Notes under the pieces: model-generated
Told to the model about the DNA's origin: nothing
Database searches by the model: none
The model's input: only the letters and a program-made list of their open reading frames with translations
Shown: one piece after another, positions 15,201-31,319 of the stretch
Position numbering within the stretch: the stretch's first letter is position 1
Layout: each line of letters opens with the position of its first letter
Assembly (NCBI GenBank): GCA_030673845.1
Contig: JAUTCQ010000024.1
Span: 1-64,000, forward strand
Reading direction: 5' to 3'
DNA from: Verrucomicrobiota bacterium JB022
GTDB lineage: Bacteria > Verrucomicrobiota > Verrucomicrobiia > Opitutales > Oceanipulchritudinaceae
DNA: 64,000 bases
Program-made: the position numbers and the translations under genes

Positions 15201-18200
15201 CCAGACGAACAGCTCCGGGCCCGCGACAGGCGTTGGCATTGGCTCTGCATCGTAAGATTCCAGCACGACATGCGCGTTGACGCCACCGGCCCCGAAGGAG
15301 CTGACACCTGCGCGGCGAGGTTGCTCCAGCCGCGGCCAAGGGGTCGCCTGACGCGGCAGGTAAAACGGGCTGCCCGCGAGCTGGAGGTGCGGGTTTTCGT
15401 GCTCCAGATGCAGGTTGGGCGGGATCACTCCGTGCTGCAGGGCCAGGATCGTCTTGATCACACCCGCAATCCCGGCGGCGGCTTCCAAGTGCCCCATGTT
15501 GGTCTTGAGTGCGCCCAGCGCACAGTAACCGGCGGGCAGCGGGCCTTGCGCGGACTGGGCAAAGGCCTTTTTCAGGCCGTTGACCTCGATCGGATCGCCC
15601 AGCGCCGTCCCGGTGCCGTGGGTTTCGACGTAGCCAATGGTGGCCGGATCTACTTGGGCTCGGCGGTAGGCATCCACAAGCAAATCGCGTTGCGCCTGCG
15701 CGTTGGGAGTGGTGAGCGAGGCCGTGTTTCCGCCATGATTGACGGCAGTACCCCGGATCACCGCCAGCACAGGGTCGCCATCGCGCAGCGCCTGGGCCAA
15801 GGGCTTGAGCAGCAACACCCCCGCGCCTTCGCCCCGCACAAAACCATCCGCGTGCGCATCGAAAGTCTTGCAGCGGCCATCGGAGGCCAGCATCTGTGCG
15901 CTGCCAAAGCTGACGTTGAGGCGCGGGCTCGCAATGACACTTACGCCGCCCGCCAGCGCCATCTCACATTCGCCACGTAGCAAGTTATTAACCGCGCGGT
16001 GGATCGCGACCAACGAACTGGAGCAAAGGGTGTCGACCGGTTCGCTCGGGCCCCGCAGGTCGAGCCGGTGCGAGATCCGGTTGGCCAGGAAGGCGTGGCC
16101 ATTGCCCGTGTCGTAAAGGAACTCCATCCGCTCGCCCAGACGCGTCCGCAACTCGTCGGTGTAGTCGGTATTGGTTACGCCAAGATAGAGGCCGGTGCGG
16201 CTGCCCCGCAGGCTCGAAGGGCGGTAACCCGCGTTTTCGATCGCATGCCAGACGCATTCCAGCGCCAGACGCTGTTGCGGATCCATCAACTGGGCTTCAC
16301 GGGCCGAGATCCCGAAGAAGGCGGCGTCGAAACGGGCGGCATCTGGTAGAAATGCGCCCCAGTGCGAGGCCGCACGGCCCGGCTCGCGCACTGGATCACC
16401 ATGAATCGAACGCCAGTCCCAACGGTCCGATGGGATATCCGTGATCAGATCGTCGCCATGGAGAAGGTGCTGCCAGAACGCTTCCAGAGAATCGGATTGC
16501 GGCAGTCGTGCGGCCATCCCGATCACCGCCACGGCCTGCTCCGGCCACGCGGCGGTAGGAGGCCGCGTTTCCGGCGCGGCATGGTTTGACTGGACCGCAG
16601 CGGTTTCCGGAGCGGAGACCGGCGCAAAATGGGCCGCGAGAGCCGCACGATGATCTTGCCAAAGAGCCTCGCCGACGGCTTGCAGCGTTGCGTATTCGAA
16701 GAAGAGCACGGGGGTCACTTCCAGCCCAAAACGCTCGTTGAGCCAGTTGGCAAATTCGACGTTGGTGATCGAGTCGAAGCCCAATTCACCCAGGTTGTCT
16801 TCCAGCGCGACCTCCGCTTCGTCGATACGTAAAACCTCGGCGGCCTGGCTCTTCAACGCAGCAAAAAAGGCCATTGGCACCGTGGGGGGAGTCGATGGCG
16901 TTGGCGTTTCGAGTGCGACGGTTTTCGCCGTAGCTGCCTTGGCTTCAGGCAGGTGCGGATCGGGCCCTTCGAGCACGAGCGCAACGGGCTGCGTGCTGGC
17001 CATGAGGGTCTTGAAGGCGCGCAAGCCACCGGTCGTCGTAAGGGGTGCGATGCCCATGGTGGTCGCGAGCAGCTTTTGCTGCGCGGGGGGCAGAGACATG
17101 CCGCCTTCGGCCCACAACGGCCATTGCAGCGACCGGGTTTTTCCGGCGCGGCGGCCAGCCTCGACCTGCTCGTTGCGCGCGATGGAGAAAGCATCGAGGA
17201 ATCCGTTGGCAAAGGCGTAATCGCACTGCCCGGCGGCCCCACGCGCGGAAGATACCGAAGAGAACAGGACGAACGCCTCCAATGGGTCTTTGCGCGTCTG
17301 GCGGTCGAGAGCGAGGGCGCCTTGCACCTTCGGACGCAACACCGCAAGGGTCGCTTCCGGCGCCTTGTCGTGCAGCAGGGCATCGTCGATGCGACCGGCC
17401 GCGTGTATCACGCCATGGAGGGGCCCGAATTCGGCCCGCGCGGCAGCTAAAGCGGTCGCCAAGGCAGCATCGTCGGCAACATCGGCCACCCTGTAGGCGG
17501 CGGCAGCGTGCTCGTCCACAAGAGCTTGCGTGGCGGCCGAAGCGGTGGAACGGCCGAGCAGGCTCACCCGCGCGCTATGGGCCAGCGCCTCGCGGGCAAA
17601 GATATGCGCTAGCTTGCCGTTACCGCCGGTGATGAGCCAGTGCTGCCCGGCACGGAAGCTGGGCGACGGGTCGGCGCTTGGCGTGAACGCTTCGAGCCCT
17701 GCGATGAAGCGTTCCCCTTTACGATAGGCGACTTCCACCGATTCCTTATCCGCAAGCTCGGCAGGGAGTAATCCGGCGAGGGCGGAGGATTTGAAATCCC
17801 CTGTGCGGCAGAGTGAGGCCTGCAAGCCTGGGTGCTCCTGACGCAGCGAGCGGGCGAACGCAGCCAAGGCATGAGAGGCGGGCACGGAGGCGTCTGGCGC
17901 AAGGGTCAGGAGGCGGATCGGCCGGACTTTGGCGGCTTCCCAACAGGCTTGAGCCGCAGCAAAAAGCGCGGCATAGCCGACATCCAACTGCTCATCGATA
18001 CCGGTGCCGATGGGCGTTTCCAACGGCAGCAGGCTGACCAGTGCGGCAGGCTGTGCTCGCAGCGCGGCAAAGAGTTGTCGCCACTGTTCGCACGAAGTCG
18101 GGTCGAGGGTAAACGCGTTGGGCGCCCTCTGCGCAAAGGCCGCCGCTGGCCGGAGGTGGATGCCATCAGGCAGCACTGGAGCCGGCTCGCCACTGAGGAC

Positions 18201-21200
18201 TAAAACAGGCCCGTCAAGCTCCCCTGCCCTCGCCGCCAGAGCCCGCCAGACGGGCCCGAAATACACTTGCCGCAACGATGCGGAAGCGGTGGCGGAGCGG
18301 ATGGGGCGCACGAGATAGTCGCGCAGCTCGACCAGGACGCGCCCCGCTTCGTCACAGACAGTGATCTGGAGGCGACGCAGGCCGTTGCTGTCGCTGGCGG
18401 GCGGGCACTGCACATGAGCCCACGCACGCGGGGCAAACAGGCGAGCATGCAAGCGCAGCTCACCCAGCGAATACGGCAGGTAAGAGTCTTCACGACGGTG
18501 CCCCAGCGGGCCGAGCGCGGCCTGCAGCGCCCCTTCAAGTAACGCCGGGTGCAGGACATAGGCATCGCCATCGTCTGCGCGAGAAGCCGGCAGGTGCAGC
18601 TCGGCGAGGGCTTCCGTTTCGCTGTAATAGAGCGCCTCGATGGGGCGGAAAGTCGGCCCATAGCCGAAGCCGCGAGCTGTGAATGTCGCTTCGACCTTGG
18701 CGCGGGTCAGGCCGTGTTTGCAGCGGGTGCGGATCGCCGCTAGATCGAGCGCGGGAACGGTCTCTACGGCACCAAAAATGGCACGGCCTTGGGCGTGGCG
18801 GAGACCATTGGCGGTTTCAACGGTAAATGCGCCTGCGCGCTCACCAGCAGGGCGTTGAAACCGGATCTGCACCGTTTGTGCCTGCCCAGGCTGGATCTCT
18901 ATTGGTTGCATCCATACGACATTGCGCAAGCCGGTGGGTATACTATCAGGCTCAGCCAACGACGCGGCTTGGCGCACCATCTCCAAGCCGACCACGCCCG
19001 GCAATACCGCGACCTCGTGCACCAGGTGCTCGGCGAGGAAAAACTCGTCGGCCCTCAACGTGCGGTGGAAGGTGATCACATCGCGCTCCTCGGTGCGGGA
19101 GTCGATCAGCGCGGCAAGGGAGGATCCTGCTTTGTTGCGGATGAGGCGTGGCAACGGGAATGCGCTGGGGGCAAAGGCATAACCCGGCAAACGCACTCGA
19201 CGAGGCGGCTGCACGTAGAGCTGCGCCCAGTCGACCTTGGAACCGGAGGCCCAGGCGCGTGCCAGGGCCGACCCAGCGCGGTTTTCCAAGGCGGTTTTTA
19301 GTTTCTGGTCGGCGATCGTGGCCGCTGCGCCCGAGACGAAGCACTTGCCATTCCCCCGCCCTGCCAGCTGGGCACGCAGCGCGGCGATCAGTTCGCTCTT
19401 GTCGGCGGCGACCAGCGCGAGCCGGGAGGCCATCGCTTCGCGACCGCATTGCAAGGTCCAGGCCACACGGTCGAGCGGGACTTCGTTACGTTCGAGCCAG
19501 GCCACAAAGGTCGCCAGCCACTCGCTCAGGCGCTCTTCCTTCTGCGCTGAAAAGACAAAGACAAATGGCCCCGAAACACTATGCGTGGCATGCTCGACTG
19601 GCGGCTCCTCCAGAATGACGTGCGCGTTATTTCCTCCAAAACCGAACGAACTCAGCCCTGCCCGACGGGGTTCGGAACCGCGAGGCCAAGGCTGAGCATC
19701 TTGTAGCAGGGCAAACGGGCCCTCTCCCAAAGGCAGCATCGGGTTGGGTTCGCCTGCGTGGAGGGTCGCGGGCAGGCGCTCGTGCTGGAAAGAGAGCAGG
19801 ATCTTGGTGAGCCCGGCGATGCCAGCGGCGGCTTCCAGGTGTCCGATGTTGGACTTGACGGAACCGAGCCAGCAGAACGGCTCCGCTGGCAGCATTTCAC
19901 CGCGTGTTTTGGCCGTTTCGGCAAAGGCGGTATGAAGGGCGTTTAGCTCGACCGGGTCGCCCAGCGAAGTGCCCGTGCCGTGGGCTTCGAGATAGCTGAT
20001 GGTGCGCGGTGAAAGCTCCGCTGCCTGGAGCGCACGGCGGACGAGGGAGGCCTGTGCGGCGGCGTTGGGAGCTGTCAACGAATGCATGCGCCCGCCATGG
20101 TTCTCGGCCGTCGCGCGAATCACGCCGTGGATCAGGTCGCCGTCGCGCAACGCCGCCGCAAGAGGCTTCAGCAAGACCAGCCCGGCACCTTCTCCGCGCG
20201 CATAACCGTCTGCGCCTTGGCCAAAGGCTTTGCAACGGCCATCAGGCGCGAGCATGCCATTTTTGCTCAGCGCCATCGAGGTGAGGGGGCTCAGGATCAG
20301 GTTGACGCCCCCTGCGAGCGCGACCGGGCATTGCCCCTGCCGGATCGCCTCAACTGCACGGTGAATGGACACGAGCGAGCTGGAGCAAGCCGTATCCACC
20401 ACCACGCTGGGCCCATGCAGATCGTAAAAATACGAGAGGCGGTTGGGCAGCATGGTGTGCGCCTGGCCCGAAAGCGTATGGCCTTCCACTTCGCGGCCCG
20501 CGAGGCGCTGCAGGTCGACAAAGTCCATTCCCGTGGTGCCGATGAAGACGCCCGCCTCGCTGCCAGCGAAGTGAGAAGGGGCGTAACCGGCGTCTTCGAA
20601 AACGTGCCAGGCCAGCTGCAGGAGCAGACGCTGCTGTGGGTCCATTGCTTCGGCCTCGCGCCGCGATATGCCGAAGAAGCGATAGTCGAAGTGGTCTACG
20701 TCTTCGATGAAGTTGCCCCAGCGCGCGGCCGGTTGATCGGGATAATCCCGCCAGTCCCAACGCTCGGGCGGAACCTCCCGGCGGGTCTCGCCCCGCTCCA
20801 GCAGCAGCTGCCAGAAGGCCTCCAGATTACCGCCCGGGAGTTGGGCGGCGAGGCCGATAATGGCCACCGCATCGCCTTCGGGCGCTTCAGGTTGGGGCTG
20901 GGAGAAAACAACGGGAACCTCCAGCGGGCGCAAATGGTGCGCGAGGGCGTCCAAGGTGCCAAACTGGTAGAACAGTGAGGCGTTGGTCCGCAGCCCAAGC
21001 TCTTTATTCAGCAGCTGACTGAACTGCGTGAAGCGCAACGAATTGAAGCCGTATTGGCCGAGCGGCTCCTGCGGGTCGAGCGTATGGGCCGGTTGCTCAA
21101 GCACCCGCGCGGCCAGTTGACGCAGCGAGTCCAGAAATCCATCGGTGGGCGCAGCGGTGCTGGCTTGGGCCGCGGGGGCTTCCGCTGCGCCATAGCGGGC

Positions 21201-24200
21201 CAACAGCGTGTTCAGCGGCAGGTCGGTCAACGACTTACGGTCGACCTTGCGGTTGAGCGTCTCCGGGTAGGCCTGGAGGCGATGGATGCGGTTGGGCACC
21301 ATGTAGTCGGGCAGCCATTGGGCGAGCGATTCGCGCCAGGCAGTTACGTCGCGCTCGGTTGACAAGGGGGCGACGACAAATGCCGCCAGGTGGGCATCGC
21401 CTTCGAAGCGAAGGACCACGACTGCACGTTCGACCCGGGGCAGCTTTTCCAGGGTAGCTTCGATCTCGCCCAGTTCGATGCGGTAGCCCCGCAGCTTGAT
21501 TTGCGAATCAATGCGACCGCGAAACTCGATGCGCCCATCGGCGAGGCGGCGCACGGCATCCCCGGTGCGATAGATGCGCTCGCCTGGGCGGAAGGGATCG
21601 GGCAGAAAGCGCTCTGCCGTCAACTCAGAGCGGCCCCGGTAGCCTTGCGCCACCCCATCTCCGCCGATGAATAGCTCGCCCTCGACCCCTACCGGTACGG
21701 GCTCCAGTGCGGCATCAAGGACATACAGGGTCGTATTGGCGAGCGGATGCCCGACGGTGATCTTTTCGCCGCGCTGCACTCGGCAAAGGCTCGACCAGAT
21801 GGTGGTTTCGGTGGGGCCGTAGACATTCCAGAGTTCGCCGCACCGGTCGAGTAGCGCATCGGCCAGTTGCGAGCCCAGCGCCTCACCGCCGCAGAGAATC
21901 TTCAAAGCCGAGTCGCCCTCCCAATCCGCCGCCAGCAGCATTTCCCACGTGGCGGGCGTCGCCTGCATCACCGTCGTATGGCCTTCGCCCAGTATCTCCG
22001 TCAGGCGGATGCCATCGCGGGCGGTTTCGCTGGAGACGATTTCGAGTGAACCGCCGGTGACGAGCGGGAGGAACATCTCGAGCCCGCAGATATCGAAGCT
22101 GACAGTGGTGACGGCGAGGATGCGATCTTGCGCGGTAAAGCCGGGCTCGCGTGCCATGCTGCACAGGAAGTTGGTCAGCGCGCGGTGCCCGATTTCGACG
22201 CCCTTGGGTTTGCCGGTCGAACCGGAGGTGTAGATGACATAGGCCAGCGCCGTGGGGGCACCCTGCTCCACCAGTTCGCCTGCTGGCTCGCCTGCCGTCT
22301 GGTCGACCAGCACTTCCGCGACGCCCGGCAGCTGGAGACGCCCTTGCAGCCTTGCCTCGGTCACAATGAGGCGCAGGCCGCTGCTCTCTGCCGTGTAGGT
22401 CAGGCGCTCCACCGGGTGGGTGGGGTCGAGCGGGACGTAGGCCGCACCGGTGCGGAGGATCGCCAGCAACACGACCGGCAAGCGTTCGCTGCGCTCGACC
22501 AGACATGCCGCAAGGTCGCCGGGGCCGAGACCTCGCGCCTGTAGACGCTGGGCCAGATGGCGCGATTGGGCCTCCAACTCGCCATAAGTCAGCGTGCGGC
22601 CCTCGAAATGCACGGCCGGAGCATCGGGGTGCTGGTAGGCTTGGTCGAGAAAGAGCTGGTGGGCACAACGCTCACGCGGGTAATCGGCGGCGGTATCGTT
22701 CCAACGGTACAGCAAATCGTGGCGCTCTGTGGCGGCAACCATGGCGAGCTGCGACACGCTGCAGGCAGTCGATTCGGCAAGGCTGGTGACGAGGGTGGCC
22801 AGTTGGCTCGCCATCGCGGCAATCGTGCCGACGGAAAAGAGCGAGGGGCGGAACTTCCAGTATAGCGCGTAGCTGCCCTCCGTCTCGACCACATCCAGCA
22901 CGAGGTCGAACTCCCCTGTCTGGCGCAATTCGCGGACCGGAACCAGCCCGAGCGTCTGCAGCGCTCCGGTGGGGAGCGGCGGCTGGACATAAAAGGCCGC
23001 CTGAAAGAGCGAGGACTGCCGAAGCACGCGCAGCACCTCGCCAAATGGCAGGTGCTCGTGCTCCAGAGCCGCATCGGCCACCTGTTGCACGCGTTGCAGC
23101 CAGGCCTTGCCCATTTCCTGTGCATCCGGCGACAAGCGCAGCGCCGCGAGGTTGAAAAGCGCGCCAAGCGTACGGTCGAAGCAGGCTTCCGGTCGACCGG
23201 CCAAGGGCAGGCCGAGGCACAAATCATTCTGCTGGCTGTGGCGGCTCAAGACCAGCGCGTAGGCCGCCAGCAAGACGGTATAGGGCCGCACGCCTGCGTC
23301 CCGAGCCAACTGACGCAGCCGCTCGGAAAAAGCCGCATCCAACTCCTGCGCATGGATTTGCCCTTCGAAGACCGGCGCGGGGGGGCGCGGAAAATCGGTC
23401 GGCAAATCGAGCACCGGATTCGCATCACGGAGCTGCCGACTCCAGTAATCGCGGGCGGCCTCGGAGTCTTCGGTATCGAGCGATTGCTGTTGCCAGGTCG
23501 CGAAATCGGCCAAGGTGCCTTCCACGGGCGGCAAGGATTCGCCGCGTATGGCCCGGGCGAGGTCTTCGAGAAAGATGCCAAGTGAGACGCCGTCGAAAAT
23601 CAGGTGGTGGAAGACGCAGAGCAACATGCCCGCCTCTGCAAAGTATACCACCCGCCACGGCAGCTCCTGCGCGAGGTCGAAAGGTCGACGTGCGGCAGCT
23701 TCGAGGGCGTCGGCGGTGGCCTCGCCGGGTACCTGTTGCCAAGGTAGCTCGGGGAGCGGGAAGGCGATGCGCTGGACGACTTCCCTACCCGCCTCGAACC
23801 TTGCGCGCAACGCAGGATGGGCCGCGACCACTTGGGCCAGTGCCGCCCGTAGTTTCACTTCATCGCGCAAGGGCGAATCGGGTGTCAGGCGAAAGGCGAA
23901 AGGCAGGTTGTAGGCGACCGCCGCCGGGTTCAGCTCATGAAGTTGCCAGAGAATGCGCTGACCGGCATTGAGCGGCACCAGCGTATCCAGCTTGGGGGCG
24001 GCCCCCTGTCCCGTGATCTCGGCATGTAGCGCGCGCAGGGTGCGGCAGCGAAAAAACACGGCTGCGCTCAGCTTCAAGCCAAGGCGCTTGTTCAGGCGCA
24101 CACTGAGGCGGGTAAAGTGGATCGAATCGCATCCGGCGGCCTCCAAATCGGTATCCTCGTCGATGGTGAGCGCAGGCAGGACTTCCCGCGCCACCACGAG

Positions 24201-25220
24201 AAGCTTCGCCCGCAGGCCGTCTCCGGTTGCTTCCTTCGCGATGGCCAAGGTTGCTTCGAGGTCGGCCAACGTCAGCTCGCGAGGTTCCTGACCCAGCGCG
24301 TCGAGCGCGTCGCGTTGGGCGGCGGTGAGAATGGGGAAAGGCTGGCCCGCAAGGCGCGTGGCGTCAAAGGGCTGCCCGTGGGCATCGGCCAAGCCGTCGA
24401 AGCGTAACGTGCCACCATGCGCGACGATCTCGACAAAACCGGGACCGGCCGTGCGGATTTCGCCCGCTTTACCCCCTGCCCCGGGCACGAGTCGGTATCG
24501 GGTAAAGGTCAGCAGGCGGCCGTCGGCCGTGAGGAGACTGGCGGGGCCTAAAGGCGAGGGAGGCTTGCCGTGGTCGAGTGCACGGCAATGCCTGAGCAGT
24601 GTAGGCAGGTCTTGGGAAAGGTCGATAATGCCAAGCTGAGGGAAGCGGTGCCAGCGGCCAAAATATGTGCGCTCACCCTGCTGTGCCTGCCACGCGGACT
24701 CCCCTGTTTCGAGTGCTTGCATAACCTCTTGAAAGCCTTCCAGCGCGTGCTCGAAGCACTTGCGGTTGAGGCTGCGCAGGGTCTCGTCGGGAGCGACCGG
24801 GAAGAGCCTCTGCACGAGGATTTCGCCCGCGTCGACCTCCGGGAGCATGCGGTGCCAAGTGATGCCGTGGATCTTCTCATCGTGCAGAATGGCCCAGGCC
24901 GGAGCGTTGAGACCGGCATAGCGCGGCAGCGGGCCGTCGTGAAAGTTGATCGCCATCTTTGCGGGCAAGGCCAACACCTCTGGCGGCAAGACCCGCAAGT
25001 TGGCGATGCTGAAGAGCACATCTGCGGCGCCAGCGGCTTGCAAGCACTCGGCCAGGCCCAGGCCGGGGGCTACGACTGGAATGGCTCGCTCTCCTGCCCA
25101 GCCGCACAGGGCTTCGTCGACGGTGCTGATCGCGCTGATCCCGTGCCCGCGTTCCAACCACGCTTCCGCACATGCGAGCGCATGGGCGTTTTCGCCTAAC
25201 AAATAAGACGACAGTTTCAC
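273..25220 (-). CDS. hybrid NRPS / trans-AT polyketide synthase megaprotein
   Basis: About 8,315 residues. Domain order from motifs: formyltransferase-like FT (1-310), carrier (320-410), condensation (415-850), adenylation (857-1340), carrier (1360-1430), KS1-DH-KR-ACP (1448-2850), KS2-DH-KR-MT-ACP-ER (2895-4980), KS3-ACP (4987-5650), KS4-OMT-ACP (5680-6520), KS5-DH-KR-MT-ACP (6560-8250), C-terminal docking helix (8285-8315). No acyltransferase domain lies in any module and KS domains are followed by short trans-AT-type flanks, so malonyl units must come in trans, presumably from the AT-ER protein encoded divergently. A GTG start at 25220 is chosen because FT relatives begin at the equivalent of MKLSSYLxG; an in-frame TTG at 25265 would add 15 residues. 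The stop overlaps the next PKS start (ATGA). Product unknown; modules are described separately. Confidence 0.95.
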   Translation of the reverse strand: MKLSSYLLGENAHALACAEAWLERGHGISAISTVDEALCGWAGERAIPVVAPGLGLAECLQAAGAADVLFSIANLRVLPPEVLALPAKMAINFHDGPLPRYAGLNAPAWAILHDEKIHGITWHRMLPEVDAGEILVQRLFPVAPDETLRSLNRKCFEHALEGFQEVMQALETGESAWQAQQGERTYFGRWHRFPQLGIIDLSQDLPTLLRHCRALDHGKPPSPLGPASLLTADGRLLTFTRYRLVPGAGGKAGEIRTAGPGFVEIVAHGGTLRFDGLADAHGQPFDATRLAGQPFPILTAAQRDALDALGQEPRELTLADLEATLAIAKEATGDGLRAKLLVVAREVLPALTIDEDTDLEAAGCDSIHFTRLSVRLNKRLGLKLSAAVFFRCRTLRALHAEITGQGAAPKLDTLVPLNAGQRILWQLHELNPAAVAYNLPFAFRLTPDSPLRDEVKLRAALAQVVAAHPALRARFEAGREVVQRIAFPLPELPWQQVPGEATADALEAAARRPFDLAQELPWRVVYFAEAGMLLCVFHHLIFDGVSLGIFLEDLARAIRGESLPPVEGTLADFATWQQQSLDTEDSEAARDYWSRQLRDANPVLDLPTDFPRPPAPVFEGQIHAQELDAAFSERLRQLARDAGVRPYTVLLAAYALVLSRHSQQNDLCLGLPLAGRPEACFDRTLGALFNLAALRLSPDAQEMGKAWLQRVQQVADAALEHEHLPFGEVLRVLRQSSLFQAAFYVQPPLPTGALQTLGLVPVRELRQTGEFDLVLDVVETEGSYALYWKFRPSLFSVGTIAAMASQLATLVTSLAESTACSVSQLAMVAATERHDLLYRWNDTAADYPRERCAHQLFLDQAYQHPDAPAVHFEGRTLTYGELEAQSRHLAQRLQARGLGPGDLAACLVERSERLPVVLLAILRTGAAYVPLDPTHPVERLTYTAESSGLRLIVTEARLQGRLQLPGVAEVLVDQTAGEPAGELVEQGAPTALAYVIYTSGSTGKPKGVEIGHRALTNFLCSMAREPGFTAQDRILAVTTVSFDICGLEMFLPLVTGGSLEIVSSETARDGIRLTEILGEGHTTVMQATPATWEMLLAADWEGDSALKILCGGEALGSQLADALLDRCGELWNVYGPTETTIWSSLCRVQRGEKITVGHPLANTTLYVLDAALEPVPVGVEGELFIGGDGVAQGYRGRSELTAERFLPDPFRPGERIYRTGDAVRRLADGRIEFRGRIDSQIKLRGYRIELGEIEATLEKLPRVERAVVVLRFEGDAHLAAFVVAPLSTERDVTAWRESLAQWLPDYMVPNRIHRLQAYPETLNRKVDRKSLTDLPLNTLLARYGAAEAPAAQASTAAPTDGFLDSLRQLAARVLEQPAHTLDPQEPLGQYGFNSLRFTQFSQLLNKELGLRTNASLFYQFGTLDALAHHLRPLEVPVVFSQPQPEAPEGDAVAIIGLAAQLPGGNLEAFWQLLLERGETRREVPPERWDWRDYPDQPAARWGNFIEDVDHFDYRFFGISRREAEAMDPQQRLLLQLAWHVFEDAGYAPSHFAGSEAGVFIGTTGMDFVDLQRLAGREVEGHTLSGQAHTMLPNRLSYFYDLHGPSVVVDTACSSSLVSIHRAVEAIRQGQCPVALAGGVNLILSPLTSMALSKNGMLAPDGRCKAFGQGADGYARGEGAGLVLLKPLAAALRDGDLIHGVIRATAENHGGRMHSLTAPNAAAQASLVRRALQAAELSPRTISYLEAHGTGTSLGDPVELNALHTAFAETAKTRGEMLPAEPFCWLGSVKSNIGHLEAAAGIAGLTKILLSFQHERLPATLHAGEPNPMLPLGEGPFALLQDAQPWPRGSEPRRAGLSSFGFGGNNAHVILEEPPVEHATHSVSGPFVFVFSAQKEERLSEWLATFVAWLERNEVPLDRVAWTLQCGREAMASRLALVAADKSELIAALRAQLAGRGNGKCFVSGAAATIADQKLKTALENRAGSALARAWASGSKVDWAQLYVQPPRRVRLPGYAFAPSAFPLPRLIRNKAGSSLAALIDSRTEERDVITFHRTLRADEFFLAEHLVHEVAVLPGVVGLEMVRQAASLAEPDSIPTGLRNVVWMQPIEIQPGQAQTVQIRFQRPAGERAGAFTVETANGLRHAQGRAIFGAVETVPALDLAAIRTRCKHGLTRAKVEATFTARGFGYGPTFRPIEALYYSETEALAELHLPASRADDGDAYVLHPALLEGALQAALGPLGHRREDSYLPYSLGELRLHARLFAPRAWAHVQCPPASDSNGLRRLQITVCDEAGRVLVELRDYLVRPIRSATASASLRQVYFGPVWRALAARAGELDGPVLVLSGEPAPVLPDGIHLRPAAAFAQRAPNAFTLDPTSCEQWRQLFAALRAQPAALVSLLPLETPIGTGIDEQLDVGYAALFAAAQACWEAAKVRPIRLLTLAPDASVPASHALAAFARSLRQEHPGLQASLCRTGDFKSSALAGLLPAELADKESVEVAYRKGERFIAGLEAFTPSADPSPSFRAGQHWLITGGNGKLAHIFAREALAHSARVSLLGRSTASAATQALVDEHAAAAYRVADVADDAALATALAAARAEFGPLHGVIHAAGRIDDALLHDKAPEATLAVLRPKVQGALALDRQTRKDPLEAFVLFSSVSSARGAAGQCDYAFANGFLDAFSIARNEQVEAGRRAGKTRSLQWPLWAEGGMSLPPAQQKLLATTMGIAPLTTTGGLRAFKTLMASTQPVALVLEGPDPHLPEAKAATAKTVALETPTPSTPPTVPMAFFAALKSQAAEVLRIDEAEVALEDNLGELGFDSITNVEFANWLNERFGLEVTPVLFFEYATLQAVGEALWQDHRAALAAHFAPVSAPETAAVQSNHAAPETRPPTAAWPEQAVAVIGMAARLPQSDSLEAFWQHLLHGDDLITDIPSDRWDWRSIHGDPVREPGRAASHWGAFLPDAARFDAAFFGISAREAQLMDPQQRLALECVWHAIENAGYRPSSLRGSRTGLYLGVTNTDYTDELRTRLGERMEFLYDTGNGHAFLANRISHRLDLRGPSEPVDTLCSSSLVAIHRAVNNLLRGECEMALAGGVSVIASPRLNVSFGSAQMLASDGRCKTFDAHADGFVRGEGAGVLLLKPLAQALRDGDPVLAVIRGTAVNHGGNTASLTTPNAQAQRDLLVDAYRRAQVDPATIGYVETHGTGTALGDPIEVNGLKKAFAQSAQGPLPAGYCALGALKTNMGHLEAAAGIAGVIKTILALQHGVIPPNLHLEHENPHLQLAGSPFYLPRQATPWPRLEQPRRAGVSSFGAGGVNAHVVLESYDAEPMPTPVAGPELFVWSARTETALEAQLAAFADHLEALEERFAFADAAATLRQGRDVFACRAALVAVDVADFSRRLRTQQGLLRGTVAKPSKSTANWPKIPTHETLESLARDWTEGRFSNWPDEQGTWRRIALPGYVFDATRFWLPEAKATPPTRPVGLLAGASRQGNVFQLHLHGDHPFLRDHEIGGQRLLPGMASLGLAVEALRETEHPVHSLRRIAFLRPLIAGATGLDISVALHDDGFTVEAERETGVRAMASDTAFTPERLDLEPLLVRASEQLEAEAFYAQLSSAGMHYGPGLRSVRRVWRSRDECLAQLISPPAAFAAEATLPPAIFDGALQAIAGVHAAEGGALVPFSIEHFQWSGEPLREAYVHVQRETTEGTTPHFTIRIADREGNVRARLEGVAVRPQKPTPVPRFFVPRPHPIETAPRRLAAEAVLLYPEAQPAMAEAVRQALRARNIAVSETASLTADLHPECDIFAFAPAVESDALTERWGHDLQTLIAREEPAHVCLLASESAPVVSAIWGALLDAAVAENPFLHGGTWVLATDGDAAGLAAQILEADTRSGLLAPEGGMRARLIEAELPAATDSAYRERGIYWIVGGAGGLGRVLTRHLLEHHRAQVVVTGRRAEQELPGDLQAEWRELARATGGEVRYRQAAADDLEAMTAIHGQIVADWGAMHGVFHAPLVLADGAMRNLSFEALDRVLRPKLQGARVLAQILPAQGLDFLAFFSTVQSFTSGAGQGNYVAASRAQDAVAASLREQMAYPVQTIHWGYWGEAGAVATTDYRRRLTAQGVEPITNHAGMVALERVLASRLPAVAVYAGNEAARAAIGVLPDRKLVQLGDIATLPASAAFPLASADRALTDYLQAFSRLETWGVARAQADIRNVDLVAVAPEQRRLHAALSRLTVGDTLAGGDLKALLADYPALRPAARLLERCVEALPAILRGEERATDVIFPEGKLDLVEAIYREHPRARWCNDRLATALTALVPKGRPSLRILEVGAGSGGTTDTLLPLLERLGIEAEYVYTDLSPAFLEYGRRTFGHYAGLRCCRLNIEEPIPPEHLARYDLVVATNVLHATRRLDETLEHVHALLRSGGWLLLNELTQAHAYDTLTFGLLGGWWRFEDRRLPDAPIASSQLWQRLLAARGFEAHSLGGEAYGQTVFAARADGLRDASTTLTAAPSPTVAATSELSEENAMNQIEAEIRAALAELLGPEAATVDAQTAFSEYGVDSISGVSLVYRLNDTFGLKLKTTVLFDYPNLAALTTHVAEKSPRAPQAPTPVPQAVAVPLAAPATPVVASRSTPIFDDPILLTGARPAAWRIHGPGGVDGLALEPLELHPPADHEVRVRVTACALNFGDLLATKGLYPAMPAYPFTPGFEVAGEVEAVGSAVSDFSPGDRVFGLTSSHLGGHATHVVTEARLLRLLPDGISAEEAVALPVAFLTAHHAFSAARLGAGERVLIQTAAGGVGLLAVQLAQAAGAEIFATAGSAEKLEYLRRLGVPYVINYRTEDFAARIRELTGGEGVDVVLNTLSGGAIQQGLNLLRPGGRYLEIALAGLKGAKGLDLSRWLENQEFHSINIATLIARQPELLARYLDEMVAALERGKVRATVGKSFAWSELRSAYRWLESRQSIGKAVVRVTSQSVTVQEPERFEVAIVGYSAQFPGAADATEFWANLAAGKSSITEVPAGRWDLSHYDPDPHRLDKTHSKWGGFLDGIDQFDPKFFNLSMKEASLSDPQQRLFLEHSWKALEHAGYAGIERPVCGVFAGTCGGDYERLLRQHGIPREAQSFWGNDDSILASRIAYFLDLKGPAVSIDTACSSSLVALHQACQSLRTGDCEMALAGGVFVRTTEHFYILCSNAGMIAAGPECRAFGADAAGFVPGEGVGVLVLKPLADARRAGDTIYGVVKGSAINQDGRTNGITAPSARSQAAVERLAYERAGIDARQLSYIEAHGTGTELGDPIEVEGLNQAFAADTRDRQFCALGSIKTNIGHTSAAAGVAGVLKVLLALEHSQLPPSLHCARENPHIDFADSPFFMSRELRAWPARADQPRLAGVSSFGFSGTNAHVVLAEAPALRSTASRSAVYPVVVSAKTPAALEALCRSLAEALQTTTASLADVAGTLALGRQPFAHRRAFVACDLADLVAQLRQSTGIAAGDALSKAQVTRYLAELKAARTTASAEVAARAVAAHFAAGGSVAWDSLFVRGSFRRISLPGHPLEKVRCWVSGSTPTPSMPAPLPVVETKPAIAPAANAEAALCAALAEVAYLEAEAVDLDASFEEFGLDSIMLVELQDRLTGQFEGLTKSAFLEAATPRELLALLTPNASMPPGSAPAAVTPPEPTQDDRVAIIGMAGMFPGAVNLEAFAANLRAGTHAISDVPMLRWDAAAQGESVYCRQGGFVDGVELFDPYFFKLTPAEARRMPPEERLLLEKAAEAIAHAGYSPDDWRGQKVGVFTGQTTNTYSLRGGHTDPSTYRLANRISWFWDWRGPSLNVDTACSSTLVALDLACRSLQRGECPAALVGAANLYLHPAKYALMCQHRMIATTAADGIFGRGGTGFMPGEAVGALLLKPLSAALRDGDRVLGVVRATATAHKGRGGNAFVLPSPEGQAALLREVLAEARLEADAIGYIEAQAIGSELADEAEWTALRKVFGEVNQPVTLGSLKPRIGHAEAASGLAQVAKILAQFAENVIFPTALARDANPALDLANGPFEIASAVQPWPTNRAHALLASFGAGGSEAAVVLERFIDPRPTEQVRAPLAPPVFERIRCWTDETPAAEAALAEVVEPKEGDVGSYYNIVATDAERTISDKEIYLTFAPFAERRPGFAWLKASFQPETCPEAVAMMHEKQKEMRRVLFRHVDFSQVGGVMDLGCGFATDLIQIGRHHPQTIGNGYTLSSRQAQLANQRIAKAGLGERFQVFCRDSSKDELPAVYDLIIAFEVTVHIANKDGVFGNAARHLSEGGWMVLADVISNTAAEVDAAHLGQYTNTQEQYSRILARHGLELACCVEAGKELGNFMHDPAFEDNLDELSRLQPEMCGAEVEHRGWHRFGLLLDRGLMRYSLLTVRRAYGTENELFARNQAAFARSLTYSQWIAQHPEFVHDTPAQVVDTGSALEQLHALAAKAFEMDPARIDADARFVDYGVDSLMGLLFVEEVNRALGLKLPMRVVYDHSSLRDLAAHLLKQHPTAFASQKPAPAGPLQVKPATVVAERAAPMAEASDDAVAVIGMAGRFPGAHNVACLWENLCAGVDSVTEVPASRWDAQRFFSPQPQPGKTIGKWGGFLEGVEHFDPLFFHISPAEAEVMDPQQRLFLQTAWHALEDAGLPGERLAHERCGVFAGVLNNDYQRLIERAGDDRRNQSMLGVAQSILAARIAYFLNLKGAALTVDTACSSSLVAIHLACRSLLTGESRMALAGGVTLYLDEVPFLSMSAAGMLAPGGRCRPFDARADGIVPGEAVGVVVLKRLQDALADGDRIHGVIRASGMNQDGKTNGITAPSAASQAELLREVYTRAGISPRSIGLIEAHGTGTALGDPIEVAALTEAFSPATHDRRFCALGSIKSNLGHTSAAAGVCGLIKALLCLHHGKIPPSLHYERDNPHAPLAETPFYVPAVLTPWAQGSELRRAAISSFGFSGTNCHLVLEEAPKASRSASVQSSQACLFSARTEASLRDFVREVARFLDINEVPFADLVHTLQHGRQHFRERLAVVAANPDALRQQLHAWLAGQSSNCHRGQVQPGSAAAANTVEGQARAWVHGAPITWPKLGRIVSLPGYAFARERCWIVPVKDEPLIVHASDPLVRDHVIDGTPILPGVGFLGLVVKGPTAWAEVAWLRPLAVKGPVPLERVEIGDVLALRRDDETLFELRRAENTAHPSPEALSAIQSRCLQTLVVASLYRDFAVSGLVFGPSLQVVQGATKGQGEVLGQLQTSSTSSGDFRPELLDGAFQLVALLEGSGAVRMPFAARGFRLLTAMPARVSTHVRRLGVDRYALALYTPEGGCCLQIDELTLRPPKPTGPELPQCGFKPTWQALERLPQPIGSIGPATVAYLGAGEAFARQLFPQTTPISLEQLSLPTDTARLMIVASGESAASDLACAAEAQAMTLALFRLIKRLLATGWAERPLDLRLVVDRAQPLFPSETPRPATAALLGFIRSTAREYPQWRIRAVDANFDEPARVVQPLLALDMPAEVLTRSTGIWTRQLSAQPLVPPARPLRRQGVYLIAGGTGGVGFETARLLAQEAAARLVLLGRRPEDATIRAQLAELEALGARAIYISGDVACAVDCAQAVERCQREFGALHGVVQAAFVLADETLARMDEARLLTSLQAKLAGTAALAQAVRGLALDWFLVHSSAQSFAGTAGQANYAAGSRFQDALTEALAAETGLPVRIVNWGLWGDVGSVAGPGYQKRLATAGILPISPAEGRETLRCVLAGHGTQTVYLKADLSILTELGCPVSNEVRRASAEVAVPLSAVLNQRILTLPDEIELARYDEAFAAWEAWGRQQLFDMLKASGAWAHGPVGVETLADRLKVVPASRSHFRELVQSLVRVGLLRVTKDGFEPAGFAPVNRPQALEAQGRLLEACLREALPILRGEKRAVDVLFPGGSMELVEAVYRGNLLSDHYQEAVAQTVLAFARQCSGQVRILEIGAGTGGTTQAILRALEPLRGRIDYTYTDVSEAFLDHGCQVFGGRGIAYRICDITRSPVAQGFDAGSFDLVVASNVLHATPAIEATLCHLHLLLKRGGLMVGQEVTRLRDFATYTFGFTPGWWAFRDPWHRASGGPLITDQQWQKLLQKNGFSTAQLDAAGLAQADHRLVLGVSNGWIVIPQPRKAPAALPPTPRAPADSPAVDSAQRYLREMLSRALRIPAHEFDDLTPVEEYGVDSLVILNLNRELQQRCPGLPSTLFFECPTLASLAAYLTEHYPQQFAVSRKTPPATPPPPPSLESLFRSNGELRGRVEQLDEGTIDALLAQLSHLEPQGNS
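390..5580 (-). other. PKS module KS5-DH-KR-cMT-ACP plus C-terminal docking helix
   Basis: KS5 is active by motif (VDTACSSS near 6725, EAHGTGT, SNLGHTSAAAG). The DH is intact (DHVIDGTPILPG near 7140, LLDGAFQ near 7277). The KR has AGGTGGVG near 7557 and HSSAQSF...GQANYAAG near 7697. The C-methyltransferase has LEIGAGTGGTT near 7985. The ACP has GVDSLV near 8214. This predicts an alpha-methyl, alpha-beta-unsaturated unit. A proline-rich linker and a final helix (EQLDEGTIDALLAQLS) precede the stop; such a helix is a likely C-terminal docking partner for the helix that opens the next PKS protein. Confidence 0.88.
5660..8205 (-). other. PKS module KS4(KS0)-O-methyltransferase-ACP
   Basis: KS4 keeps the nucleophile (VDTACSST near 5830) and the second His (RIGHAEAASG). 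The first catalytic His is lost: the usual EAHGTGT reads EAQAIGS (Gln near 5965). This is the hallmark of a non-elongating KS0 that only passes the chain along. It is followed by a methyltransferase of the trans-AT O-MT type (EIYLTFAPF and PGFAWL leader, SAM motif MDLGCGFATD near 6205) and an ACP (GVDSL near 6476). KS0-OMT-ACP is a known non-elongating unit of trans-AT lines. Here the preceding module has no KR, so the acceptor may be an enolised beta-ketone. Confidence 0.85.
8270..10270 (-). other. PKS module KS3-ACP (no ketoreductase)
   Basis: KS3 has all catalytic residues (IDTACSSS near 5148, EAHGTGT, TNIGHTSAAAG). After the usual post-KS flank the next domain is directly an ACP (GLDSIML near 5615), so the module has no KR, DH or MT of its own. 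The beta-keto group made here should persist unless an enzyme acts in trans. The ACP lacks the tryptophan a few residues after the serine that marks beta-branching ACPs, so beta-branching is not indicated. Confidence 0.85.
10275..16545 (-). other. PKS module KS2-DH-KR-cMT-ACP-ER (fully reducing, alpha-methylating)
   Basis: KS2 is active by motif (DTLCSSS with Cys near 3066, ETHGTGT, TNMGHLEAAAG). The DH is intact (DHEIGGQRLLPG near 3510 and IFDGALQ near 3660). The KR has VGGAGGLG near 3930 and FSTVQ...GQGNYVAAS near 4070. A C-methyltransferase has LEVGAGSGGTT near 4330. The ACP has GVDSI near 4560. An NADPH-binding enoyl reductase of the MDR type follows the ACP (AAGGVGLLAVQLA near 4800). Together these would give a saturated unit with an alpha-methyl branch. 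A cis-ER placed after the carrier, rather than between DH and KR, is atypical compared with cis-AT PKS. Confidence 0.88.
16670..20885 (-). other. PKS module KS1-DH(atypical)-KR-ACP
   Basis: KS1 is complete: VDTACSSS (Cys about 1612), EAHGTGT and SNIGHLEAAAG. The dehydratase-type domain keeps the first His (EHLVHEVAVLPG, near 2064), but the glycine of HxxxGxxxxP is Glu, and the catalytic Asp of HPALLDxALQ is Glu (about 2229). The ketoreductase has TGGNGKLA near 2530 and the Ser/Tyr/Asn set in SSVSSARGAAGQCDYAFAN near 2660. The ACP has GFDSI near 2815. Because this module extends the glycyl unit, an altered DH could be inactive, a pyran synthase or double-bond shifter, or could place the alkene next to nitrogen. 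All of these are inferences from two residues. Confidence 0.85.
20950..23985 (-). other. NRPS module C-A(Gly)-PCP
   Basis: The condensation domain carries an intact HHLIFDG (HHxxxDG) at about 538-544. The adenylation domain has YTSGSTGKPKG near 995, FDICGLEMF, NVYGPTETTIW, YRTGD and the NRKVDRK lysine. Aligned by eye to GrsA PheA, the specificity residues read D-I-L-Q-L-G-V-I-W-K, which differs from the standard glycine code DILQLGLIWK at one position, so glycine is predicted. The carrier near residue 1394 reads GFNSL instead of GxDSL, with the usual Asp before the phosphopantetheine Ser replaced by Asn. The module sits between the FT-carrier start and KS1, so glycine enters at or near the start of the chain. 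Confidence 0.85.
23990..25220 (-). other. PKS loading segment: formyltransferase domain plus carrier protein
   Basis: Residues 1-310 resemble methionyl-tRNA/GART formyltransferases in the form fused to NRPS and PKS proteins. The formyltransferase N-H-D triad is visible as N92 and H94 (INFHDGPLPRYAGLN) and D130 (EVDAGEI). A carrier follows with phosphopantetheine serine 366 in AAGCDSI. There is no adenylation domain between FT and this carrier, unlike FT-A-PCP loaders such as linear gramicidin LgrA. The carrier must therefore be charged in trans, or be bypassed. Either the FT formylates an amino acid brought to this carrier, or it acts on the glycine of the following module; the sequence does not decide. 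Confidence 0.8.
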
Positions 25221-25434: not shown

Positions 25435-26727
25435 ATGTCTCAACCTGCCGGCCCCTCACTGACGTCCGAAGAGGCAATTCATGCCTATTTCTCCACACCC
25501 TTCGATTTGTTAGATCGGTGTGCCCTTCTTTACCCCGACTGCTTTACCTTACGCCTCGGCACTTTCGGGACCGAACATCTGGGCGCCAACGGCGATTGGG
25601 TGTTTGTCTACGAGCCCACGCTTTTGGGCGAACTCTACCGCGCCAATACGGATGCGATCCGGGCCGGAGAGGCCAACCGTGTGCTGTTCGGGGAGGTTCT
25701 GCGCCCTCATTGCATCCTCGCCCTCGACGGTGAGGCCCACCAGCAGAGACGGCGGATCGTGATGGCAGGGCTCGGCAAGTCGCAGGTGGCCAGCGCAACG
25801 CAGCACGTGCGGGGCTTCGCGCAACAGCGCCTGGCGCGCCTGCCGCACGGCGAGCCGATTTCCCTGCTGCCGGTAATGCAGGAAATCGCGTTGGAAGCCA
25901 ACCTCGCGGCCCTTTTCGGTTCCCCGAATGAGGCCTTGCGCCAGCGATACAGCGGCGCGATCGAAACTCAACAAGCGACGGCTACCGCCGAGTCCAGCAA
26001 CCGGATGCTGGCTCATCTCAGCGCCCTGTTAAGGGAGGAAATCGCCCGACGGAGGCGGATGCCCATACGCCTCGACGAGCAGGCAAGCCTTTGCGAGCAC
26101 TTGATGCACGCTACGGACCCTAGCGGCACGCCATTGAGCGACGACGACTTGCTTGACGAGCTGCTGCTGATCCTGATCGCCGGCTTTCATACCACAGCGG
26201 TCAGTCTGGCCTGGGCGGTCGCGTGGATCCTCTCCCACCCGGAGGTGCACGCCCGGCTGCGGCTGGAACTGGCTGCGGCTGGCTCCGAGGCGGAGACTTT
26301 GCCTTACCTGGCCGCAGTGGTGCAAGAGTCTCTGCGGCTCAGCCCCATCATGGTGACCGCAGGCGTGCGACTGGTGAAGGAGGACTTTGATTTAGGGCCT
26401 TACACGCTGGCCGCCGGCACAATGGTAGCCAACTGCCCCTACCTCCTGCATCGCCGCGAAGACCTCTTTCCCCAAGCCCGAACGTTTTTGCCAGACCGTT
26501 TTTTGGGTGGCAGCAGCAAAGCTTCAGGCTTTACGCCGTTTGGTGGAGGCAATCGTAAATGCGTCGGCACACTTTTCGCGATCCGCGAAATGGAGACGGT
26601 CCTGGCGACATTGTTTCGTCAGGTAAACATGGAACTCGCCAGCCCTGCCCTTGCCCCTATCCTGGAAGGCGTCTTCTATGCCCCTCAGGGTGGCCCTCAG
26701 GTTTACCTCAGCTCCTTCCAAGCATGA
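25435..26727 (+). CDS. cytochrome P450
   Basis: A 430-residue soluble bacterial cytochrome P450, most likely an oxygenase tailoring the polyketide since it shares an operon with the trans-AT protein. The I-helix motif AGFHTT is at 249-254, the K-helix ESLR starts at E298, and the haem loop FGGGNRKCVG places the Cys ligand at 376. The acid that normally precedes the I-helix threonine pair (AGxD/ETT) is His252, so proton delivery may differ from the standard. The ATG at 25435 follows the divergent promoter region. The stop overlaps the start of the AT-ER gene (ATGA), indicating translational coupling. Substrate and site of oxidation cannot be read from the sequence. No ferredoxin or reductase gene is seen nearby. 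Confidence 0.93.
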   Translation: MSQPAGPSLTSEEAIHAYFSTPFDLLDRCALLYPDCFTLRLGTFGTEHLGANGDWVFVYEPTLLGELYRANTDAIRAGEANRVLFGEVLRPHCILALDGEAHQQRRRIVMAGLGKSQVASATQHVRGFAQQRLARLPHGEPISLLPVMQEIALEANLAALFGSPNEALRQRYSGAIETQQATATAESSNRMLAHLSALLREEIARRRRMPIRLDEQASLCEHLMHATDPSGTPLSDDDLLDELLLILIAGFHTTAVSLAWAVAWILSHPEVHARLRLELAAAGSEAETLPYLAAVVQESLRLSPIMVTAGVRLVKEDFDLGPYTLAAGTMVANCPYLLHRREDLFPQARTFLPDRFLGGSSKASGFTPFGGGNRKCVGTLFAIREMETVLATLFRQVNMELASPALAPILEGVFYAPQGGPQVYLSSFQA

Positions 26728-29039
26728 TCACCGCTCGCATCGCTCATCTCTTCCCCGGTCAAGGTTCCCAGCAAAAGGGCATGGGGGCCGACTTGTTCGA
26801 TGCCTTTCCCCGCGAGGTGGCCATTGCCGACGAGGTGCTCGGCTACTCGATCCGCGAGCTGTGCCTGGAGGACCCGCGCCGCGAACTGGGGCAGACGCAG
26901 TTTACGCAGCCTGCGCTCTTTGTCGTATCGGCGCTCAACTACCTGGCGCGTCGGGGCAAAGGCGAACCGGCCCCGGAAGTCGTAGCCGGGCATAGCCTGG
27001 GCGAATACACCGCCCTCTTTGCTGCAGATGTTTTCGACTTTCGCACGGGGGTCGAGCTGACCCAGCGGCGGGGGCGCCTGATGGCCGCTGCGAGCGGCGG
27101 CGGGATGGCCGCCATCGTGGGCCTCGATGCCGAACGAGTGCAGGCGATCTTGAGCGAGGAGGGGCTGGATGCGCTCGACCTCGCCAACCTGAATTCGCCT
27201 GACCAGGCGGTAATCTCAGGGCCGCGCGAAGCCATTGCCACGGCAGAAGCACCGTTTAGCCGGGCAGGGGCGCGCTACATCCCTCTGCGCGTCAGTGCTC
27301 CCTTTCACTCGCGTTACATGGAGCCGGCACGGTTGGAGTTTGCGGACTTCCTCGCCACAAAGGAATTGCGTGAGCCTCGGATCCCGGTAATCGCCAATCG
27401 CACCGCCCGCCCCTACGAGTCGGGCCAACTGGCGGAGACCTTGGCCGGGCAGATCACCGATCGCGTGCGCTGGACCGAGACGGTGCAGGTGCTGATGGGC
27501 TTGGGCGTGGAACAATTTGAAGAGGTCGGTCCGGGAAACGTGCTGACGGGGCTGGTCGGCAAGATCCGCCGCCACGCGCCGCCCATCGTATTGACGTCGC
27601 CTAAACCTGTCATCCGCCCCACCCCTTCCTCCGCTCTCGCGAGGGTAAACGGCCTGCAGCCCGAGCAACTGGGCAGTGCGGAATTTCGCAGCGCCTACGG
27701 CTGTCGCCTCGCCTACGTGGCGGGTGCAATGTATAAGGGAATTGCGTCGGTGGCGCTGGTTTCGCGGATGGCCCGGGCCGGCTTGCTCAGCTTCTTTGGG
27801 GCGGGCGGGGTCGACTTTTCGACGCTCGAACAGACCATCCAGACCTTGCAGCGCGACTTGGGCCCGAATCGCCCGTGGGGCGTCAACCTGATTTGCCACC
27901 CCGACCACCCGGCGCTGGAAGAGCAGACGGTCGACCTGCTTTTGCGGCATGGCGTGCGACGCGTAGAGGCGGCGGCGTTTTTCCAGATCACGCCTGCCCT
28001 TGCCCGCTACCGCCTGCAGGGAATCACACGCGGCGCAGACGGCAAGGTGGTCGTGCCCAACCGGGTGCTGGCCAAGGTTTCGCGACCGGAGGTGGCGGAA
28101 GCCTTTACCAGCCCCGTGCCGGAAAAGCTGCTGGAGCGCCTGCGAGCAAGCGGTGTCATTACGGCGGAGCAGGCGGAATTGGCCCGCCGCATCCCCGTGG
28201 CAGACGACTTGTGCGCCGAGGCAGACTCGGGAGGCCATACCGACATGGGATCGCCCTATGCGCTGCTTCCGGCCATCCAGGCGGTCCGCGACGCGGCAAT
28301 GGCGCGCCACCGCTACCCGCAGGCGATCCGCGTAGGTGCAGCGGGCGGCATCGGCACTCCTCAGGCAGCCGCAGCGGCTTTTGTGCTGGGCGCCGATTTT
28401 GTACTGACCGGGTCGATCAATCAATGCACCCCGGAAGCCGGCACCAGCGACGCGGTAAAAGACCTGTTGCAGACCCTTAACGTGCAGGACACGGCGTATG
28501 CCCCGGCAGGCGACATGTTTGAGCTGGGCGCGAAGGTGCAGGTGGTGAAGAAGAGCCTGTTTTTCCCGGCGCGCGCCAACAAGCTGCACGACCTTTACCG
28601 CCATTACGACTCACTGGACGATCTGCCGCCCAAACTGCGCGAACAGATCCAGGAGCGCTTTTTCCGTCGCAGCTTCGACGAGGTGTGGGAGGAGACGCGT
28701 GCCTATTACGCCCGCAGTCGACCGGATGCGCTGACCCGGGCGGAGGCCAACCCGAAGCAAAAGATGGCGTTGATCTTCCGCTGGTATTTCATCCACAGCA
28801 TGCGCCTCGCTCTGTGCGGCGACACCAGCCAACGGGTAGACTACCAGATCCACTGCGGCCCGGCGTTGGGGGCGTTTAACCAGTGGGCAAAAGGAACCGA
28901 GCTGGAGCACTGGAGGCAGCGCCATGTCGATGTGATTGGCCAGCGCCTGATGGAGGCTACCGCCGAGCTGCTGACTCAGCGCATGGCCTCATGGAGCCAG
29001 CCGCCCGCAACGCATTCCACCCCGCCGGAGTATCGCTAG
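26724..29039 (+). CDS. trans-acting acyltransferase-enoylreductase fusion (FabD-PfaD)
   Basis: A 771-residue fusion. Residues 1-290 are a malonyl-CoA:ACP transacylase: FPGQGSQ, nucleophile Ser91 in GHSLGE, and the His motif SAPFHS with the Phe typical of malonyl specificity. Residues 310-771 are a PfaD/FabK-type FMN-dependent enoyl reductase (SFFGAGGVDF, PWGVNLICHP, GAAGGIGTPQAAAAAF, FVLTGSINQCTPEAGTS). Such AT-ER tandems serve trans-AT lines, for example leinamycin LnmG. This is the only AT in the window and should load the AT-less modules of the neighbouring megaprotein, while the ER may reduce selected enoyl units. The chosen ATG (26724) overlaps the P450 stop. A longer open frame upstream lies inside the P450 and is rejected because the FabD family begins at this point. 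Confidence 0.95.
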   Translation: MITARIAHLFPGQGSQQKGMGADLFDAFPREVAIADEVLGYSIRELCLEDPRRELGQTQFTQPALFVVSALNYLARRGKGEPAPEVVAGHSLGEYTALFAADVFDFRTGVELTQRRGRLMAAASGGGMAAIVGLDAERVQAILSEEGLDALDLANLNSPDQAVISGPREAIATAEAPFSRAGARYIPLRVSAPFHSRYMEPARLEFADFLATKELREPRIPVIANRTARPYESGQLAETLAGQITDRVRWTETVQVLMGLGVEQFEEVGPGNVLTGLVGKIRRHAPPIVLTSPKPVIRPTPSSALARVNGLQPEQLGSAEFRSAYGCRLAYVAGAMYKGIASVALVSRMARAGLLSFFGAGGVDFSTLEQTIQTLQRDLGPNRPWGVNLICHPDHPALEEQTVDLLLRHGVRRVEAAAFFQITPALARYRLQGITRGADGKVVVPNRVLAKVSRPEVAEAFTSPVPEKLLERLRASGVITAEQAELARRIPVADDLCAEADSGGHTDMGSPYALLPAIQAVRDAAMARHRYPQAIRVGAAGGIGTPQAAAAAFVLGADFVLTGSINQCTPEAGTSDAVKDLLQTLNVQDTAYAPAGDMFELGAKVQVVKKSLFFPARANKLHDLYRHYDSLDDLPPKLREQIQERFFRRSFDEVWEETRAYYARSRPDALTRAEANPKQKMALIFRWYFIHSMRLALCGDTSQRVDYQIHCGPALGAFNQWAKGTELEHWRQRHVDVIGQRLMEATAELLTQRMASWSQPPATHSTPPEYR

Positions 29040-31222: not shown

Positions 31223-31319
31223 GGAGAGAATCTTAGCAGAGGAGAATGAAGAAAAGGAAGCAGAAGCTGCACGAGGGTTGAGCTTGGACAGCGTTGACGG
31301 CTCCACTGCGTTCTGCCGC

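Follow-up and report, generated by a model that had tools for sequence, protein, structure and literature searches.

A carrier and a condensation domain between formyltransferase and adenylation domain at the start of a trans-AT NRPS-PKS line: a possible formyl-Gly-Gly starter

A trans-AT NRPS-PKS of 8330 residues opens with a formyltransferase (FT), a first carrier (CP1), a condensation domain (C), an adenylation domain (A) with a glycine-like code, and a second carrier (CP2). The FT-CP1-C-A-CP2 architecture is real, and all parts described in an earlier sequence-only reading of this DNA were found. We tentatively propose, at somewhat below an even chance, that it is a formylating loading module in which a single glycine A domain serves both carriers and from which the line would start with formyl-Gly-Gly. 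The window, that is, the whole stretch of DNA analyzed, comprises bases 1-64000 of contig C24 (119,322 bases) in a genome of 4.35 Mb. The open reading frame (ORF) spans positions 273-25265 on the reverse strand, and its translation contained only the terminal stop. The GTG at 25220 (V16) is the likely start, judged by where the FT homology sets in. About 24 kb separate the FT-CP1 join from the closer contig end; this distance and the open frame ruled out a contig artefact at the join.

Within the first 1833 residues, Pfam detected Formyl_trans_N, Condensation, AMP-binding, two PP-binding stretches, and ketoacyl-synt. Combined with our own HMMs, the start of the ORF read FT-CP1-C-A-CP2-KS-DH-KR-CP and the full order FT-CP1-C-A-CP2, KS-DH-KR-CP, KS-DH-KR-MT-CP-ER, KS-CP, KS(EAQAIGS)-MT-CP, and KS-DH-KR-MT-CP. 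The FT covers residues 18-320 (24306-25214, reverse strand, as are all domains of the ORF), as supported by Pfam, alignments, and an AlphaFold2 model. CP1 (residues 351-420; 24006-24215; own HMMs and trees) follows it directly, 31 residues downstream, with no A domain ahead; it keeps the serine of its motif, which is GCDS where GFDS or GVDS is more common. The C domain (residues 426-852; 22710-23990; Pfam and own HMMs) carries HHLIFDG at residue 553. It is followed by the A domain (residues 868-1352; 21210-22664; own HMMs and alignment), with the code DILQLGVIWK, and by CP2 (residues 1377-1448; 20922-21137; own HMMs and trees), with GFNS. The first carrier without an A domain and the complete C-A-PCP module were thus found as the sequence-only reading had described them. 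By own HMMs and motifs, KS1 (residues 1465-1899; 19569-20873) harbors DTACSS and EAHGTGT, and the rest of the first PKS module (16653-19118) consists of a DH with aberrant motifs (residues 2050-2330), a KR (2536-2730), and a CP (2800-2871).

No acyltransferase was detected in the ORF by Pfam at E <= 1e-3, and an AT-ER (FabD-PfaD) gene encoding a trans-acting AT adjoins it (26559-29039, forward strand, listed from its first possible start, with the AT from about residue 60). The line is therefore of the trans-AT type, as had been stated. A second AT of the same line is encoded on contig C19. The cytochrome P450 gene at 25435-26727 (forward strand) is probably part of the cluster. Upstream of the cluster, the window also contains an OleC-like adenylate-forming gene and an acyltransferase gene (29591-32141).

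The line continues beyond the window, with more PKS modules on contig C25 (16,044 bases) and at the end of C19. The 60-base ends of C24 and C25, and of C25 and C19, are identical and lie inside KS-coding sequence; the order C24-C25-C19, with the cluster split across the three contigs, is therefore likely. The C19 part (L126:4223-17074, reverse strand) ends with C-A-CP-C-A-CP and a weak thioesterase match, and its A codes are DAYFLGATFK and DVENIGGVTK. After the last NRPS gene, L126:1325-4308 (reverse strand) encodes a PPTase, the second trans AT, and a LysA-like PLP decarboxylase. A higher-scoring LysA copy was found on C13, so the L126 copy may serve the pathway; neither copy reaches the curated cut-off. 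In the window ORF, residues 5691-6533 form a KS with EAQAIGS replacing HGTGT (non-elongating), followed by a methyltransferase and a carrier.

We gathered FT relatives from plasmids, from the phylum, from genome contigs (the best 80 of 487), from two other phyla and one order (377, 396, and 399 genomes), and from 19 genomes of one order. They were picked for likeness to the window FT, and the sample does not stand for all FTs. Matches scoring 150 or less were dropped, own-genome copies or hits (L001-L009, L124, and L128) were left out, C or MT matches in the FT-A interval were ignored below 60 bits, and removal of repeats reduced 155 rows to 136 distinct FTs. Among these, the next confidently matched domain was an A domain in 130, the fragment ended in five, and only the window FT was followed by a CP, which bears out the claim that the extra carrier and C domain are unusual against FT-A-PCP loaders. 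In 123 of the 130 FT-A cases, the FT came first in the ORF or fragment; a C domain preceded it in seven. The FT-to-A gap in these cases measured 174-403 residues (median 241), a monooxygenase was located nearby in 74, and 11 showed a weak C-domain match in the gap, which by eye resembles the C-terminal half of a C domain. Six NRPS fragments of the same phylum (L036, L037, L038, L039, L040, and L043) harbor an internal FT in the order A-CP-C-FT, followed by A where the fragment was long enough. At L103:9950-20272, two consecutive genes each open with FT and A and close with a CP and a weak TE match.

Other copies of the arrangement were not found in the sets searched. Among 17 family genomes, the only match to FT-CP1 was that of the own genome, with no close copy elsewhere, and of 374 genomes of the phylum, none but the own genome gave a match to the C query (residues 339-858) at E <= 1e-75. 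No FT match in the sets of 377, 396, 19, and 399 genomes extended past residue 314 of the 408-residue query, in which CP1 begins at 334, and viral contigs yielded no match. Searches of open-licence PMC text on formyl starters and FT lines likewise found no FT-CP-C-A starter.

The FT has the N-H-D residues that had been claimed for it: N107, H109, and D145 were invariant in a 10-row alignment and, numbered N90, H92, and D128, in a 31-row alignment. In the AlphaFold2 model of FT-CP1, block pLDDT was about 84-98 over the FT and about 45-68 from model residue 311 on, CP1 included. The best solved neighbors of the model were ArnA, Fmt, and other formyl-THF enzymes, and the FT of LgrA was matched by sequence search at E values of 2e-4 to 8e-4. 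In the FT tree, the window FT grouped with FTs of the monooxygenase (LLM) type, with 97/82 support for its pairing with L093, and stood outside the FTs of L166 and L168, the two lines nearest to the window from the A domain onward. Forcing it together with L166 cost 11.2 log units (AU p 0.056), and with L166 plus L168, 13.0 log units (AU p 0.041). As the FT groups with the LLM kind and not with L166 and L168, the starter module may be a chimera with pieces of differing source.

From the A domain onward, the window resembles two Acidobacteriota lines. L166 (G816) reads FT-MT-A(DILQLGLIWK)-CP-KS-DH-KR-CP-KS, and L168 (G411, Holophagae) reads FT-linker (about 220 residues)-A(DILQLGLIWK)-CP-KS-DH-KR-CP-KS. 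Both share the A-CP-KS-DH-KR-CP-KS order with the window and are collinear with it: window residues 870-2894 were 38.7% identical to L166 residues 909-2936 over 2102 columns, and residues 861-2950 were 34.1% identical to L168 residues 629-2876 over 2306 columns. However, both lack the CP-C pair and carry a methyltransferase (L166) or a linker (L168) in its place. Such collinear FT-x-A(Gly) relatives indicate that formyl-glycine is probably the start of the family and CP1-C an addition. On these comparisons, the window is predicted to encode a polyketide starter of the formyl-glycine type, its CP-C pair standing in the place that a linker or a methyltransferase takes in the relatives. The position of the L166 methyltransferase brings to mind the N-formyl-N-methylglycine start of tolytoxin-type compounds. 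The FT-MT-A(Gly) opening of L166 belongs to a 14,052-residue Acidobacteriota PKS ORF (G816:C40, also covered by L178-L180), several carriers of which pair with carriers of the window line; the KS motif EAQAIGS is also present there.

The A code, read from an alignment with anchors placed by hand, fits DILQLGxIWK, the consensus code of glycine-activating A domains. The same consensus was present in 4 of 21 other FT-linked A domains, namely L166, L168, L098 (Acidobacteria; FT-A, DILQLGVIWK), and L081 (Streptomyces; FT-A, DILQLGMIWK), and these four were among the five domains nearest to the window A out of 75 others. The A2 domain of LgrA, which we take to be glycine-specific, differs from the consensus in the alignment, so other glycine codes also exist. 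Candidate genes for separate loading of CP1 were considered as well. The AMP-binding gene at 29591-31531 was rejected as a fatty-acid-CoA ligase/OleC-like gene (PRK09274, 674.9 bits, cut-off 478), and the A-like genes on C12 and C17 because they resemble phospholipid or acyl-CoA ligases. On contig C9 (L004:92-3922), a GNAT-like protein, a stand-alone A-like protein, and a separate formyltransferase are encoded side by side. The A-like protein is DltA/A-domain-like, and we know of no amino acid that would match its code, ENFYLGVSIK.

The best matches of CP1 among the fetched carriers were the L166 carrier after A (47.0 bits) and CP2 (45.1 bits; 44% over 50 residues), and the next match scored 37.0 bits. 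In a 58-row carrier tree, CP1 and L166_1396 joined at 100/84 and then CP2 at 93/82; in a 43-row tree, the three formed one clade at 81/81, with CP2 and L166_1396 closer to each other. The support is moderate, since the trees comprised 72 columns, the bootstrap was not yet stable, and the two trees disagreed on the branching within the clade. The motif S[ILVM]xFT occurred in 4 of 227 distinct carriers, namely CP1, CP2, L166_1396, and L166_2845, the last of which is the carrier of the next PKS module and not a glycyl carrier. The carriers behind the glycine-coded A domains of L168, L098, and L081 were placed among ordinary PCPs in both trees, apart from CP1; the CP1 clade therefore rests on one relative, which weakens the kinship of CP1 with glycine carriers. 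With moderate confidence, CP1 appears to be a sister or a copy of a CP2-type carrier, and the kinship of the two suggests that one A(Gly) may load both, an option that the sequence-only reading had not considered.

The C domain looks like an elongation-type domain and is predicted not to be of the starter kind. Among solved structures, its nearest matches were elongation C domains (Txo2, TycC, and LgrA; E 1e-39 or better), and it was remote from C1 of the CDA synthetase (E about 1e-7), presumably a starter C domain. In a 54-row C tree, it joined the C19 C domain (94/87) and that of L042 (91/84), the two domains of the set that come after a PKS carrier or module, on a long branch (1.67).

Considering these parts together, the A domain would charge CP2 in the normal way and may charge CP1 as well. 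The FT, judged by its intact residues and close coupling, would transfer the formyl group of formyl-THF to the amine of glycyl-CP1, and the C domain, judged by its type and motif, would join formyl-glycyl-CP1 to glycyl-CP2; KS1 would then accept N-formyl-Gly-Gly. Given the likeness of CP1 to CP2, the tethering of the FT to CP1, and the elongation-type C domain, this is the simplest scheme that gives each intact domain a task. The sequence-only reading had left two options. Its first, in which C joins a formyl-aminoacyl unit on CP1 to glycine, fits better, with an intact, elongation-like C domain and CP1 close behind the FT; its second, in which the FT skips CP1, keeps some probability from the relatives, whose only carrier in this module comes after A. 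Several findings count against formyl-Gly-Gly: the CP1 clade based on one relative and moderately supported, the occurrence of its motif in the PKS-module carrier L166_2845, the FT placed apart from those of L166 and L168, the A-like gene on C9, and the less common GCDS of CP1. In the bypass just mentioned, the FT would formylate glycyl-CP2 as in FT-A-PCP loaders, CP1-C would be idle or the leftover of an inserted CP-C, and the chain would begin with N-formylglycine. We consider this unlikely, as both CP1 and C keep their catalytic motifs, albeit with the long branch of C, and the FT-CP1 linker is much shorter than the FT-to-A gap of the relatives. More improbable is a degraded FT-CP1 in a line that begins otherwise; the mixed descent of the FT and the lack of a close copy in the family genomes would agree with it, but the catalytic residues shared with the relatives, the open frame, and the confidently modeled FT fold make it quite improbable.

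A formyl-X-Gly start, in which CP1 receives another unit in trans (an amino acid or the amine left by a decarboxylase) that the FT formylates and C joins to glycine, also appears doubtful. Carrier-bound amino acids are the substrates of decarboxylases of the BtrK/VinO type. Next to the second AT and the PPTase of the line stands a LysA-like PLP decarboxylase; a higher-scoring LysA copy exists elsewhere in the genome. The stand-alone A-like gene on C9 could provide such loading, although it lies on a different contig, by its own formyltransferase, and has a code matching no known amino acid, while the contigs of the line showed no amino-acid A domain besides those of its own modules and the OleC-like gene. 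As described in part of the source, the palmerolide line likewise has an acyl carrier ahead of C-A(Gly) (PMC8739492), whereas the nearest relatives of CP1, CP2 and the L166 glycine carrier, speak against a different load. Least probable of all, and very much so, is a first formyl-S-carrier starter, in which the FT would attach formyl alone to the thiol of CP1, from which C would pass it to glycine. The FT does adjoin CP1, and C would have a one-carbon donor, but the matches of C speak against a starter domain, and the product would equal that of FT-A-PCP at a higher cost. Established FT domains act on amines, and we know of no formyl thioester formation in the FT family.

Downstream of the proposed formyl-Gly-Gly start, the first window DH reads HLVHEVAVLPG and HPALLEG, compared with RDHVVRG and HPGMIDG in L166. 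The motif glycine is replaced, and Glu stands in place of the catalytic Asp; considering the roles of these two residues, the DH may be inactive or altered. Oxazole formation as in conglobatin is unlikely because a KR is present.

An FT-A-PCP start is already known, and the FT-CP-C-A arrangement is a new variant of it; within the FT line set, the interval between FT and A can host a linker, a methyltransferase, or a CP-C pair. Should one A domain fill both carriers, two modules would share a single A in cis right where a line begins, and a predictor that assigns one residue to each A domain would overlook a glycine. With CP1-C bypassed, the starter would have been caught carrying a spare module, and if the FT makes a formyl thioester, the start chemistry would be new.

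The FT-A-PCP loaders of LgrA, CongA, PtxE, oxazolomycin, and rhizopodin resemble the window in the N-terminal FT with its N-H-D residues and, in the glycine cases, in a glycine-like A domain. They differ in having neither a carrier nor a complete C domain between FT and A; the window has their carrier after A (CP2) and does not have A directly after FT. In the MupA/Atu3671 family, FT-A proteins with a luciferase-like monooxygenase inside A, the FT is the closest to that of the window both by the tree and by the plasmid search, but it leads to A and the window FT to a CP; no match to the luciferase-like monooxygenase was found in the window ORF by Pfam or own HMMs. For one A domain serving two carriers, capreomycin and HMWP2 provide precedents. 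In the portions of the articles available, a trans-AT PKS follows FT-A-PCP in both ptx and ozm (PMC5764310, PMC4504003), and module 1 of ptx is called minimal (PMC5764310), compared with DH-KR in the first PKS module of the window. The palmerolide line of Ca. Synoicihabitans palmerolidicus has an acyl carrier, C, A(Gly), and a carrier in a trans-AT line; in the excerpted text, the word "formyl" is absent, and, unlike the window, a PKS-type module with three ACPs precedes the C domain (PMC8739492). The capreomycin case is a tested one: according to the excerpt of the source, CmnA-A1 loads CmnI, a T-C protein that lacks an A domain (PMC12400406). CmnI thus shares with the window a carrier-C pair without an A domain of its own; however, it is a separate protein with an extended T domain (PMC12400406), whereas CP1-C of the window lies in one chain with A.
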